Below, in pieces: positions 16,789-24,744 of a stretch of DNA of 24,744 nucleotides. The notes under the pieces are model-generated. The model made no database searches. It was not told the origin of the DNA and worked only from the letters and a program-made list of their open reading frames with translations. Source of the DNA: a virus. Positions within the stretch are counted from its first letter, which is position 1, and every line of letters starts with the position of its first letter. The position numbers were made by a program, and so were the translations under genes. The stretch is taken from positions 1 through 24,744 of IMG/VR virus record IMGVR_UViG_3300044726_000081; one strand, given 5' to 3'.

Positions 16789-17054
16789 AGCTTACGAAAC
16801 TGCGTGTAGGGAGCCTTTAGAATAACAGGCTCCGGGTCTTCTCCCCTCTCTATCCCTGGACTTTCCGCACCTCTACTTTCTCCGCCTTCTGGCGGGGGAG
16901 GTTCTGGAAGTTCAGCCTTAGAACGGGCGAGAGAAGTTTCGGCGTTCTCATCGCCCATCTGTAGTTGTTCCATTCGAGCGTGATGCTCACGCTCGCCGAG
17001 TTCCTTCTGCTTGATCTGTTCCCTGTCTTCTGAATCTGCTGGACGTTCGCTCAC
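16785..17054 (-). CDS. Hydrophilic coiled-coil/disordered protein
   Basis: 89 aa from a GTG overlapping the upstream stop. Residues 8-50 are Glu/Gln/Lys-rich and likely helical ('REQIKQKELGEREHHARMEQ'), followed by a Pro/Gly/Glu-rich disordered stretch ('PEPPPPEGGESRG') and a short basic end. No homologous family recognised. It lies between the two paralogous genes and overlaps both by 4 nt. Confidence 0.68.
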   Translation of the reverse strand: MSERPADSEDREQIKQKELGEREHHARMEQLQMGDENAETSLARSKAELPEPPPPEGGESRGAESPGIERGEDPEPVILKAPYTQFRKL

Positions 17055-17488
17055 TTCTTACCGCCGATGTTAGCCTGCCGCTGTTCAGCGGAGGACTTGC
17101 CTTCATCGGAAGTTTCGTCGTTCTTACGTCGAGCGTTCGCCATCTGCTCTGTAGGTGTAGGTGAAGGCTCAGGAAGATTCGACGGGAGTCGAGCGTTACC
17201 AGAACGCTGTTGAAGCGATTCGTCCAAATAGACAGAAGCTTGTGTCTTTGCGTACTCGGCGAAATCCGCCGCTGGCTTCGGCTGTTCGTATCCCATATCC
17301 AAGAAAGCCTGGAGCAATTCGAGAGCTACAGCCCGAGCGCTTTCAACGGAACGAACATCGTTGCCGAGGAAGAAGGGACCTACACGCTGCAAAGCGAGAG
17401 CGAGAAGATCGACGTCCTTATCTTCCCAAGGAACCTCTTCGACTTCTGGTTCCTCGGTAGGAGTTTCCTTGGTAACTGTATCAGGCAT
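17051..17488 (-). CDS. Protein carrying the second copy of the duplicated domain
   Basis: 145 aa. Residues 23-69 ('DKDVDLLALALQRVGPFFLG', 'NDVRSVESARAVALELL') are the paralogous domain shared with the protein at 16066-16788. An acidic N-terminus precedes it, and the C-terminal half is hydrophilic, Pro/Glu/Gln-rich and probably disordered, ending 'QANIGGKK'. Shared positions include D-V-D, L-A-L-A, F-x-G, D-x-R and V-A-x-x-L-L. Function unknown. The gene follows a 150-nt structured intergenic region that holds two hairpins and a tRNA-like element. Confidence 0.72.
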   Translation of the reverse strand: MPDTVTKETPTEEPEVEEVPWEDKDVDLLALALQRVGPFFLGNDVRSVESARAVALELLQAFLDMGYEQPKPAADFAEYAKTQASVYLDESLQQRSGNARLPSNLPEPSPTPTEQMANARRKNDETSDEGKSSAEQRQANIGGKK

Positions 17489-17520
17489 GGCGGTTGCCTT
17501 TCTCTTTATTGTTCGATTAT

Positions 17521-17567
17521 GCCGGGGAACTGGACCACCTTTGGGAGTATGAGCACAGTTCCCCGGC
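17521..17567 (-). other. Stable 12-bp hairpin upstream of the 145-aa gene
   Basis: GCCGGGGAACTG-type stem of 12 perfect base pairs (17521-17532 with 17556-17567) around a 23-nt loop. In the transcript it is followed by ATAATCG rather than a U-tract, so it is unlikely to be a standard terminator; it may block exonucleases or protect the 5' end of the downstream message, which starts at 17488. Confidence 0.8.
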
Positions 17568-17568
17568 T

Positions 17569-17614
17569 GCCTAATCTACACGGTGGGTGGAATCACCGTT
17601 GACTGTAGATTGGC
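17569..17614 (-). other. Two-part hairpin containing the TGTAG/CTACA word
   Basis: AATCTACA (17573-17580) pairs with TGTAGATT (17604-17611), extended by GCC/GGC with one bulged base, and encloses a second helix CGGTG/CACCG with an 8-nt loop. It stands directly between the tRNA-like element and the 12-bp hairpin, giving three consecutive folded units in about 140 nt. Confidence 0.75.
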
Positions 17615-17617
17615 AAG

Positions 17618-17657
17618 TGGTCGATGCTGGAATCGAACCAGCTATTCCTTTTCGACC
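17618..17657 (-). ncRNA. tRNA-like T-arm/acceptor minihelix
   Basis: On the minus strand GGTCGA and TCGACC form a perfect 6-bp acceptor-like stem, and GCTGG-TTCGATT-CCAGC forms a perfect T-arm with a canonical T-loop (TTCRANY). The T-arm's 3' strand is separated from the acceptor strand by one base, as in a tRNA with a mismatched seventh pair. D and anticodon arms are absent: only about 9 nt join the 5' acceptor strand to the T-arm. The element begins within the last codons of the 68-aa gene (stop at 17642) and ends in ACCA. T-arm plus acceptor stem is the known minimal RNase P substrate, so processing is plausible but untested. Confidence 0.72.
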
Positions 17658-17848
17658 TGACGTTTCGCTTCTTGTTGTTTTCTACTCCACGGGAGTAGGT
17701 CTTCTAGTGGAAGAACTCCCACCATTATCATGCCTAAGATGATTGACTTAATCGGTACTGACTCTTCGTAGAGAGCCTCGATGATTATCAAGACCCCTAG
17801 GATGAAGATTGTTATTCTGCGTACGGCGTCAAAGAAAGCTGTAAACAT
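17642..17848 (-). CDS. Two-segment membrane protein, holin-like
   Basis: 68 aa. Two hydrophobic segments (about residues 11-25, 'RITIFILGVLIIIEAL', and 35-50, 'SIILGMIMVGVLPLEDLL') are joined by a short acidic turn; the C-terminus is strongly charged ('KQQEAKRQVEKE'). This layout fits small actinophage holins or related membrane proteins, but it is not next to the endolysin, so holin remains a guess. ATG with GAGGA upstream. The gene is bracketed by two tRNA-like RNA elements, one ending shortly before its start and the other overlapping its stop. Confidence 0.75.
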   Translation of the reverse strand: MFTAFFDAVRRITIFILGVLIIIEALYEESVPIKSIILGMIMVGVLPLEDLLPWSRKQQEAKRQVEKE

Positions 17849-17878
17849 ACCCGTCCTCGTTCGGGAAGGGTGGTGTAG

Positions 17879-17964
17879 TGGCCCGAGCTAGAATCGAACT
17901 AGCTGCACAAGAAGAACTCCGGGAGAGACAGAGACCATTGTTTTCTTGGCGCTCCTGCCGAGCC
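17879..17964 (-). ncRNA. tRNA-like element, non-canonical body
   Basis: On the minus strand GGCTCGG pairs with TCGGGCC over seven positions (two G-U), followed by discriminator A, and GCTAG-TTCGATT-CTAGC is a perfect canonical T-arm directly joined to the acceptor strand. The total of 86 nt is that of a class II tRNA, but no proper D-arm or anticodon arm can be drawn; the body instead has one helix CAAGAA/TTCTTG. It follows the stop of the 303-aa gene (18004) by about 40 nt and precedes the 68-aa membrane gene. It may be a decayed tRNA or a functional tRNA mimic. Confidence 0.65.
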
Positions 17965-18003: not shown

Positions 18004-18915
18004 TCAGGAATCGTCGTCGTCGAACAACTCCGTCACGTTGTCGTCGGAATCCGCCTCGAAGTCTGCCGGATCGTCGTCCGACAAATCGAGAGTCAGTTCG
18101 TTGATGTCTTCCGTGGACTCGTCGTCGTCATCGGAAGTTTCGTCCGTCATCTTGTTGGCGACGATCTTGTGACCGGAAACCGTGAACTCGAAACGGTCCG
18201 GGGGATTGGCCCGATCGAAGTTCGGGTTCTGCTCTTCGATCGCCTTCCAGAGTTCACCGACGTTCTTGACGAACTTCTTCAGGTGGGTCTGAACCGCCGA
18301 GAGCTTTCGCTCGGTGATCGCCGTTTCGGTTCCCTCGGGATCGGTCACCGTGAACTGGAAAGTACCGCCGAGACGCTTTCCGGTCTTCGCACGATCCCCG
18401 ACAGCACCACGGAGGTTGTCGATCTTCTCCTTGCCGAGAATCGAAACACCCACGGCCTTGAACCAATCCGGATCGGTTCCTTCCAGAAGGTTCCGGATGC
18501 CGTTCATGTTGTCGACGTGAATCTTGCGTTCCTTTCGGAACTCGACAAGCTCGGCTTCCTTCGGCTTGTCGGACTCATCGACCTTCGTGATGTTCGCATC
18601 GACGAACGTGTCGAGACGCTTGTCGTACTCCTTGAGAACCCGACGGACCGTTTCGTACAGTCCGGCGAACTGCTCGTCCGACAAACCTTCCGCCGAAAGT
18701 GCGTTTCGGATGGAAGTGGCCACCGGGTTGTTGGCCTTCTTGTCGGTCATGTCGGGGTTGGCAGCCTCGAACCGAGTGTTGAGAAGCTTCGTGCGACCGA
18801 AACTCTCCAACGCCATTTTCTCGTCGAGGGTGTCGACCAGTTCCTTGGAAGCCAGCCACTTCTCGACCAGAGTGACGGTGAACGGGTTTTCCGTTCCGAT
18901 GTTGACATCAGACAT
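18004..18915 (-). CDS. Acidic-tailed 303-aa protein, probably abundant
   Basis: 303 aa, ATG overlapping the end of the zinc-ribbon gene by 8 nt. The body is Lys/Glu-rich and mixed helical; around residues 185-200 'GGTFQFTVTDPEGTETAI' and later 'DRFEFTVSGHKIVANK' look like beta strands. The last 45 residues are almost purely acidic ('STEDINELTLDLSDDDPADF', then 'LFDDDDS'), a feature shared with ssDNA-binding proteins and with DNA mimics. No family recognised. Codon choice is strikingly regular, dominated by C- and G-ending codons, and I find no TGTAG/CTACA words in this gene although they are common nearby; both point to selection for high expression. It is third in the transcript from the promoter at 19435. 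Confidence 0.8.
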   Translation of the reverse strand: MSDVNIGTENPFTVTLVEKWLASKELVDTLDEKMALESFGRTKLLNTRFEAANPDMTDKKANNPVATSIRNALSAEGLSDEQFAGLYETVRRVLKEYDKRLDTFVDANITKVDESDKPKEAELVEFRKERKIHVDNMNGIRNLLEGTDPDWFKAVGVSILGKEKIDNLRGAVGDRAKTGKRLGGTFQFTVTDPEGTETAITERKLSAVQTHLKKFVKNVGELWKAIEEQNPNFDRANPPDRFEFTVSGHKIVANKMTDETSDDDDESTEDINELTLDLSDDDPADFEADSDDNVTELFDDDDS

Positions 18916-23147: not shown

Positions 23148-24744
23148 TCACTTCTTGTTGAGCCAGTCCTGGAGCTTGTTTCTCCATTCACTGGCCCGGA
23201 GTGCTGTGTGTTCGGTGATTCCTTCCGCCTCCATGATCTTGTCTTCGCAAATGCCGTCGATGATGTTGTCGACAGTTCCGTCGCAGATGTACTTGTGAAC
23301 CGTTACCGGCTCCAAGCAATCGAGCCTCCAAGCTCGATCTTCTGCCTGTAGGTTCCGCTGTGGGTTGTACCAACGATCCAACATGATGACGTTGGAACTT
23401 CCTCCATCCCACCGCTTGTCTTTGTGTAGATTCAGACCTTCGGCGCCGGCTCCCATGTTCAGGATCAGGACGTTGATCTTGTTGTCCTGGAAATCCTTCT
23501 CGATGTCTGCCGTATCTCTGGTCGTAAGCCTCTTGTCTCCGGTGATGGCTTCGCAGGACAATCCCATCTCCTTGAATCGCTCCATGAGATAAGCGATCGG
23601 AGAGTTGAACTGAGCACTGAAGATCAGAACGTTCTCCTTCTCGGACATGACCAACTCGAAGACATGCTCTGCGCAGTAATCGAGCTTGACGAGAGGACCG
23701 TTCAGGTGCTTGAGCACCTTCTTCTTCTGGATGTTCCCGTCGTTGTCCTTGATGATGAACCCGTTCTGGTCCTTGATCGGAACCGAAACGTTGAAGTCCT
23801 CAGCGACCAGCGAGATGCGAGCGTAGTGGAGTTCTGCCAGGATTCCGGCAATGGAAACCATGTCGTCGCCGAGTTCGTCCAGCTTGATCATGAAGTCTTC
23901 CATGACCTGCTTCTGGAAGTTCCAGAGATCGCTTCCTGGACTCATCTCCACGAAATGCTCCTGGTAGAGCTTGTCGTGCATGAACAAGCCGATTTCCTTC
24001 TTCGTCTTGCGGAAGAAGTTCGCTGAGATGACTCGCATGATGAGTTCGATCGAGATTCCGATCGAGTAAGCCATCATGAAGGTCCGCTTGAAATGCTGAC
24101 GGCTCGGGAACTGAACGGGATTGAACAAGTGGGTGTAAGCCCAGACTTCTTCGCTTCCGTTGTTGATCAGAGAACCCGACATGAAGATCGGGAACGGACG
24201 ACCTTCGGCCTTAACCTCGAAAGCGTCATCGTTCCATTGGTACTTGGAATGTCCGGCCGGCAATGCAACTACACGCATGCTTTCGGTTCCGTGGAGAAGC
24301 TTCTTGAGTCCCAACCACATCTTGGTAGGACCAGAAGCGTTTGCACCACCACGAAGTCGGTGCATTTCGTCGACTGCGATGACCATCCAATCACGCTGCT
24401 CGAACTCCTTCATGAGAGAAGTGTTCAGAGCTTCGTAGTTGGTGATGTAAGTTTCCGGAAGTCCGGCAGCCTGTAGGGTTTCGCCCATGAAGTTCAACAT
24501 GGCGACTCTGGTGTCGGAAGCTCCGAGAAGAGGAACGATGTTCAATCCCCATTCCTTGCACTGACGAGCGGAAGACTTCACGAGTGCGCTCTTAGTCAGC
24601 CAAAGACACGGAGCCTTCGGAAACAAGATGCGCAAGCCTCGGATCGTCATTGCGGTCTCAGCAGTCTTACCGAGCGAGGTATCGTTTGCGTTGAAGATAC
24701 CCCACTGACCGGTAACTTCTGGACGCAGGAAACGATCCCACGAG
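23148..24744 (-). CDS. SNF2-family helicase (5' end outside window)
   Basis: The frame is open to the right edge; 531 residues are visible. Motif I reads 'NDTSLGKTAET', a variant of the SNF2 'DEMGLGKT'; motif II is 'IAVDEMHRL' (DEMH); motif III is 'FMSGSLINNG'; the second lobe has 'VLIFSAQFNS', motif V 'NMGAGAEGLNL' and motif VI 'DRWYNPQRNLQAEDRAWR'. These define a complete SNF2 ATPase, a dsDNA translocase. Phage members are usually linked to replication or recombination. The N-terminal part before motif I lies outside the window. An ATG at 24650 is internal and would exclude motif I. Codon choice is regular, as in the 303-aa gene. Confidence 0.93.
   Translation of the reverse strand, partial: SWDRFLRPEVTGQWGIFNANDTSLGKTAETAMTIRGLRILFPKAPCLWLTKSALVKSSARQCKEWGLNIVPLLGASDTRVAMLNFMGETLQAAGLPETYITNYEALNTSLMKEFEQRDWMVIAVDEMHRLRGGANASGPTKMWLGLKKLLHGTESMRVVALPAGHSKYQWNDDAFEVKAEGRPFPIFMSGSLINNGSEEVWAYTHLFNPVQFPSRQHFKRTFMMAYSIGISIELIMRVISANFFRKTKKEIGLFMHDKLYQEHFVEMSPGSDLWNFQKQVMEDFMIKLDELGDDMVSIAGILAELHYARISLVAEDFNVSVPIKDQNGFIIKDNDGNIQKKKVLKHLNGPLVKLDYCAEHVFELVMSEKENVLIFSAQFNSPIAYLMERFKEMGLSCEAITGDKRLTTRDTADIEKDFQDNKINVLILNMGAGAEGLNLHKDKRWDGGSSNVIMLDRWYNPQRNLQAEDRAWRLDCLEPVTVHKYICDGTVDNIIDGICEDKIMEAEGITEHTALRASEWRNKLQDWLNKK

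Follow-up and report, generated by a model that had tools for sequence, protein, structure and literature searches.

Phage tRNA genes are commonly assessed from the anticodons they carry. In animals, mascRNA and menRNA (RF01684) are tRNA-like RNAs released by RNase P, and bacterial RNase P of the E. coli type prefers an RCCA sequence after the acceptor. At the level of minimal substrates, RNase P accepts model hairpins that combine a T-arm with an acceptor helix, and phage RNAs known to be its substrates include M3 RNA, C4 RNA and the T4 gene 32 mRNA (PMC11143913). For TruB, a T stem-loop on its own serves as a substrate as well as full tRNA does (PMC4227767), and bacterial mRNAs contain mapped GU-psi-CG sites that have been ascribed to this enzyme (PMC13236023).

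Among annotated phages, the closest to the virus described here is the podovirus ctEqG8 (MW202795.1), with amino-acid identities of 30% for the DNA polymerase, 26% for Sak4 and 35% for the portal protein. The gene order WhiB, polymerase, primase, Sak4 and exonuclease is common to both, with an SNF2-like ATPase further upstream, and the exonuclease-helicase interval of ctEqG8 contains four intact tRNAs with small ORFs between them. One of these, a tRNA-Lys, begins a few bases past the stop codon of a small ORF, with the next ATG inside the A-CTATG that follows the tRNA end. Cellulosimicrobium phage DS1 (MW590223.1) carries a tRNA-Glu and a tRNA-Leu between its recombination genes and a RapA-like helicase gene, and directly after the tRNA-Glu lies an isolated, unannotated T-arm (24392-24408, minus strand). 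As a separate observation, ARAGORN recognizes a tRNA-Gly (ccc) in phage phi-C31 (NC_001978.3, 31424-31511, plus strand) that is absent from the annotation of that record.

The virus examined here is a virus of soil bacteria, represented by a 24.7-kb virus record (IMGVR_UViG_3300044726_000081; the whole stretch of 24,744 nucleotides that was analysed is called the window below). Its early operon lies on the minus strand and includes genes for an SNF2-type helicase, an exonuclease, a Sak4-type ATPase, a primase-helicase, a DNA polymerase and WhiB. A 37.9-kb sibling contig (IMGVR_UViG_3300018083_000069), which additionally has portal, major head and large terminase genes, is 99.6% identical to the window in a 10.5-kb comparison, and the 700 bases around the elements described below match it letter for letter. 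One diverged relative, IMGVR_UViG_3300037070_006363 (5.4 kb, hereafter L004), shares ~67–80% identity with the window in alignable DNA. No further phage relatives were found by protein-query, alignment and DNA-pattern scans of viral contigs, or in bacterial genome contigs, and annotated phages gave no match to the 4-kb region by nucleotide search or to the 303-aa, 68-aa and exonuclease proteins by tblastn. The main weakness of the comparisons is that the element is represented by only two independent sequences, the window and L004.

Within the operon, and all on the minus strand, lie a 303-aa gene (18004..18915), a gene (17642..17848, stop TAG at 17642-17644) for a 68-aa protein that has two hydrophobic stretches and matched nothing in Pfam or PHROG, and a 145-aa gene (17051..17488). 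The initial annotation had reported two perfect 5-bp T-arms with TTCGATT loops on this strand, and both are present: element 1, downstream of the 303-aa gene, has the T-arm GCTAG-TTCGATT-CTAGC (17887..17903), and element 2 has GCTGG-TTCGATT-CCAGC (17626..17642), which overlaps the last base (1 nt) of the 68-aa stop codon, bearing out the overlap described there. Both have an all Watson-Crick stem and a canonical T-loop, with the 5-bp T-stem and UUCRANY loop that characterize RF00005. The window has no perfect T-arms other than these two, which lie 261 bases apart, and the parts of the sibling that were read contain none further; a first-order Markov model of matching composition yields an expectation of 0.007 per window. 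As an empirical background, 455 kb of annotated phage sequence (ten genomes or large segments) contained 11 perfect T-arms, eight within recognized tRNA genes, one in a repressor gene beside an integrase gene and two isolated, with both isolated ones belonging to related phages, DS1 and Microbacterium phage Shocker. The T-arms of elements 1 and 2 are tRNA-like, beyond chance. Gordonia phage Hibiscus (PP208934.1, 25156-25172, plus strand) has an isolated T-arm in its immunity repressor gene beside a tyrosine integrase, probably an attP site placed inside the repressor, the arrangement found in integration-dependent immunity.

The Shocker element (MW507126.1, 36094-36162, minus strand) is an unannotated tRNA-like element in the gap adjoining an AAA-ATPase gene; it has a T-arm and a 6-bp acceptor with no recognized tRNA, and is flanked by a long hairpin upstream and a 6-bp hairpin downstream. 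Its best Rfam match on its own strand is mascRNA/menRNA, at 20.3 bits and below the gathering score of 42.5. The window elements resemble that family in having a T-arm and acceptor with the other arms reduced, but, unlike the Shocker element with its sub-threshold match, give no match to it. Taken whole, neither the Shocker element nor that of DS1 outperforms shuffled sequences in folding, so that their relatedness to tRNA shows only in the T-arm, plus the acceptor in Shocker. In Arthrobacter phages Jasmine (35770-36020) and Adat (34270-34490), an ATPase-adjacent gap contains a long near-perfect hairpin, GAGTAGGGTAGTTGAT...ATCAGCTACCCTACTC, and no T-arm.

The matching 5′ acceptor strands proposed in the initial annotation also pair as described. 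In element 1, the 5′ strand GGCTCGG (17958..17964, minus strand) forms seven pairs, including two G-U, with the 3′ strand TCGGGCC (17880-17886), which is followed by a discriminator-like A and CTA (17879..17886 for this feature). In element 2, the 5′ strand GGTCGA (17652..17657, minus strand), located within the 3′-terminal part of the 68-aa ORF, forms six Watson-Crick pairs with TCGACC (17619-17624), which is followed by a discriminator-like A and then CT (17618..17625). CCA after the discriminator is absent from both, and neither acceptor is followed by RCCA. In a shuffle test over 80 upstream bases the acceptor helices scored p = 0.04 (element 1) and p = 0.026 (element 2), and over 150 upstream bases p = 0.12 and about 0.06–0.07, respectively. 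Since the four genuine ctEqG8 tRNAs score only 0.004–0.03 in the 80-base version, this test is weak, yet the helices of both elements are tRNA-like in strength. Folding energy relative to shuffles separates the two: element 2 is far more stable than its shuffles (z = −3.2), which is not so for element 1 (z = −1.1).

No tRNA was recognized at either element by ARAGORN, by RF00005 at E ≤ 10 or by Rfam at gathering thresholds, and the tRNA model recognized no remnants of a D arm or anticodon arm, including in focused scans of the elements. Among 50,697 phage records, the best short matches to element 2 include annotated tRNA 3′ ends, with E-values of 0.1–5. Several other tRNA-related and intron-related candidates were set aside: for an intron-split tRNA enclosing the membrane-protein gene, ARAGORN (introns up to 3 kb, relaxed threshold) returned inconsistent, poorly paired models; for a group I intron or another Rfam family, nothing exceeded threshold, the best weak match being Plastid-ycf2 on the opposite strand; and for a permuted tRNA, the partner strand was not seen on by-eye inspection downstream of element 2.

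Set beside the tRNA genes of ctEqG8 and DS1, the window elements share a corresponding interval between recombination genes and the SNF2-type helicase, the strand, and the T-arm with acceptor end, and the placement of the ctEqG8 tRNA-Lys after its short ORF is of the same kind as that of element 2 after the 68-aa gene. The 3′ end without CCA is shared too, A-CTA being found in element 1 and in three of the four ctEqG8 tRNAs, and nearly so in element 2 (A-CTT). In contrast, the ctEqG8 and DS1 tRNAs are complete and recognized by ARAGORN, whereas the D and anticodon arms of the window elements are missing or unrecognizable. The elements lie between genes of one operon, as originally noted, and because relatives carry whole tRNAs between operon genes in the corresponding interval, operon punctuation of a tRNA type is real in this group.

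Evolutionarily, the T-arm of element 2 has a counterpart in L004 (1993-2009, GCCAG-TTCGATT-CTGGC) that differs from it by four substitutions, which form two compensatory pairs, while the loop is identical. When four substitutions were placed at random in the 17 bases, the stem and the loop both survived in 0.05% of trials; a shuffle control of the pair counter on the three T-arm rows is not strong, as 56 of 500 shuffles reached the observed score. The 5′ acceptor stretch of element 2 is deleted in L004, where a substitute strand was looked for and not found, and element 1 has no counterpart there. Conservation of the stems in relatives, on which the initial annotation had let its proposal depend, is therefore borne out, with covariation, for the element 2 T-arm, and fails for the acceptor helix of element 2 and for all of element 1. 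Protein coding offers no explanation for the conservation of the T-arm, because the L004 ORF crosses it and the stop codon in the window ends at its first base. In L004 (1764-2102) the 68-aa membrane-protein frame is open through the T-arm into the last hairpin, and the C-terminus of this homologue, which shares 78% amino-acid identity with the 68-aa protein of the window, differs or its stop has been lost. A DNA operator at the inverted repeats is disfavored, since the arms change compensatorily and the loop is constant, the opposite of the trace expected from a protein that binds two half-sites. What is conserved in element 2, judged by this substitution pattern, is an RNA hairpin.

The conserved hairpin is the first of three in an intercistronic block (17519-17642) which, read along the minus strand, continues with a bulged hairpin, a 12-bp hairpin, a ribosome-binding region and the start of the 145-aa gene. 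The block is 81% identical to L004 (95/117 aligned), compared with 33–58% at the fourfold codon sites of five neighboring genes and 37% at the third positions of the 68-aa gene, and its consensus fold has 34 pairs, five of which, across all three hairpins, are changed on both sides. Identity above that of synonymous sites together with compensatory changes is what marks a conserved structured RNA, here in two independent sequences only. The bulged hairpin (17570..17613, minus strand; L004 2018-2065) consists of CTAC, a bulge AGTCAA, a 5-bp stem, a loop xTTCCACC and GTAG, with the bulge invariant and TTCCACC in the loop near-invariant between window and L004, one compensatory pair, and z = −3.4 in the window and −4.1 in L004; it is strongly conserved, had no Rfam match, and is possibly a protein-binding site or an element that pairs with the loop of the next hairpin. 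That next hairpin, GCCGGGGAACTG...CAGTTCCCCGGC (17521..17567, minus strand; L004 2063-2113), has 12 bp and sits about 24–32 nt before the 145-aa start codon (32 nt in the window); it is longer in L004, with the outer 11 bp identical in both, and scores z = −5.2 in the window and −6.1 in L004. It lacks a T run and is therefore not a standard intrinsic terminator, looking more like a 5′ stabilizer or an RNase III-type site, and inspection of the region revealed no sigma-70-type promoter. On these comparisons, we read the three-hairpin block as a probable functional RNA within the message.

Our preferred account of the locus, to which we give close to an even chance, is that both elements are eroded tRNA genes, and that element 2 has kept its T-arm as part of a conserved intercistronic RNA with a role in cis, where this T-arm would offer TruB a place to dock. 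Elements 1 and 2 would descend from tRNA genes located between small early-operon genes, their anticodon arms lost and their T-arms and acceptor ends left behind. Element 1 would be a lineage-specific remnant, while the T-arm of element 2 would have been kept under selection as the first of the three hairpins between the 68-aa and 145-aa genes. The three-hairpin RNA would most likely act in cis, within the shared message, as a folded leader or stabilizing element for the 145-aa message, and its T-arm could be a docking point for host enzymes that recognize an isolated T stem-loop, TruB first among them. The T-arms, the covariation, the constraint on the block and the tRNA genes of relatives are direct observations; descent from tRNA, a function in cis and recognition by TruB are what we infer from them, and no complete-tRNA ancestor was found among relatives at the place of either element; nevertheless, the elements are probably leftover tRNA genes without decoding arms, and element 2 probably still functions in the viral message. 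Against this account, the compensatory changes could predate the loss of the tRNA state of element 2.

That last point leads to the best surviving alternative, which we regard as unlikely though not fanciful, namely that both elements are functionless tRNA relics and that the T-arm likeness in L004 dates from the tRNA stage of element 2. Decay would fit the presence of tRNA genes in the matching interval of relatives, the isolated DS1 T-arm right after a tRNA-Glu, and the fact that element 1 is already lost or unrecognizable in L004. However, relics alone would need the D and anticodon arms to have been lost independently in two lineages, both times sparing a perfect T-arm, and this at a divergence that has taken fourfold sites down to the low identities given above.

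Less probable again, and in our judgment rather improbable, is that the elements are working RNase P sites at which cuts 5′ of 17964 and 17657 separate the membrane-protein message, which is what the initial annotation had envisaged for the pair of elements bracketing that gene. A T-arm with an acceptor helix is a model substrate and phage RNA substrates exist (PMC11143913), element 2 folds well, and in relatives, where true tRNAs stand between operon genes, RNase P should cut the transcript. The topology of acceptor, T-stem and T-loop in element 2 is that of AT1-type RNase P substrates and of M3, C4 and T4 gene 32 RNAs, but the window elements lack RCCA, their acceptor is not conserved and their cleavage is only putative; the stack of acceptor on T-stem, present in the window, is absent in L004, which keeps the membrane-protein gene with neither element 1 nor the element 2 acceptor strand. 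Moreover, CCA is missing at the right place, element 1 has a folding z-score of −1.1, and a cut at 17657 would land inside the 68-aa ORF. Since L004 lacks the acceptor, neither element has CCA and element 1 shows no conservation, bracketing and cutting is unsupported as a conserved function; the membrane-protein message may be released by RNase P in the window, but L004 gives this no support. The broader interpretation as tRNA mimics accordingly survives in part: the elements are tRNA-like and not due to chance, and element 2 is a conserved hairpin, while the bracket-and-cut function is not supported. An eroded-tRNA origin, absent from the options first considered, explains more of the facts.

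The remaining explanations fare considerably worse. It is very improbable that the transcribed elements are decoys that titrate the CCA-adding enzyme, EF-Tu or TruB: a T stem-loop by itself is a full substrate of that last enzyme (PMC4227767), yet competition with cellular tRNA cannot be taken for granted from one or two copies within a message, and the acceptor end is not conserved. Slighter still is the chance that the T-arms are attP-like copies of the 3′ end of a host tRNA; isolated T-arms do occur near temperate-phage integrase genes, Hibiscus being an example, but the window and the 37.9-kb sibling (contigs that are possibly incomplete) contain no tyrosine or serine recombinase, the pattern has just two exact matches in 84,980 genomes, both of them tRNA-Phe genes from unrelated bacteria and neither a plausible host tRNA, and two differing copies lie in the window with a third, differing one in L004. 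Coincidental hairpins, although each acceptor helix taken alone is modestly significant, are a negligible prospect given two closely spaced T-arms where 0.007 are expected and the retention of one of them, with covariation, in L004.

Returning to eroded tRNA genes with a retained T-arm, the specific prediction is set by what has been conserved. Elements 1 and 2 and the L004 T-arm all have a 5-bp stem and a 7-nt T-loop with equivalents of U55 (17897 in element 1, 17636 in element 2) and C56, as in the T stem-loops recognized by TruB, and because the conserved part is the T stem-loop alone, and TruB accepts such stem-loops, modification or binding of the T-arm by TruB is the best-founded specific prediction. 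Element 2 resembles the mRNA hairpins of TruB (GUUC T-arm mimics) in its 5-bp stem and UUCGAUU loop, a minimal T stem-loop substrate, and differs from them in being embedded in a conserved three-hairpin RNA. A structural role of the T-loop within the three-hairpin RNA fits the data equally well, and modification by TruB would not by itself show function.

More broadly, the window, L004, Shocker and perhaps DS1 might represent different stages of a class in actinobacterial phages in which an intercistronic tRNA sheds its decoding arms and keeps its T-arm as a cis signal for processing, stability or modification, a generalization that we hold as doubtful. If the T-arm has been under selection since the decoding half was lost, some phage tRNAs may have a second role in cis, in marking polycistronic messages. 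Such a role, if true, would tie phage tRNA genes to message processing in a testable way and would provide a concrete natural candidate for the action of TruB or RNase P on phage mRNA.
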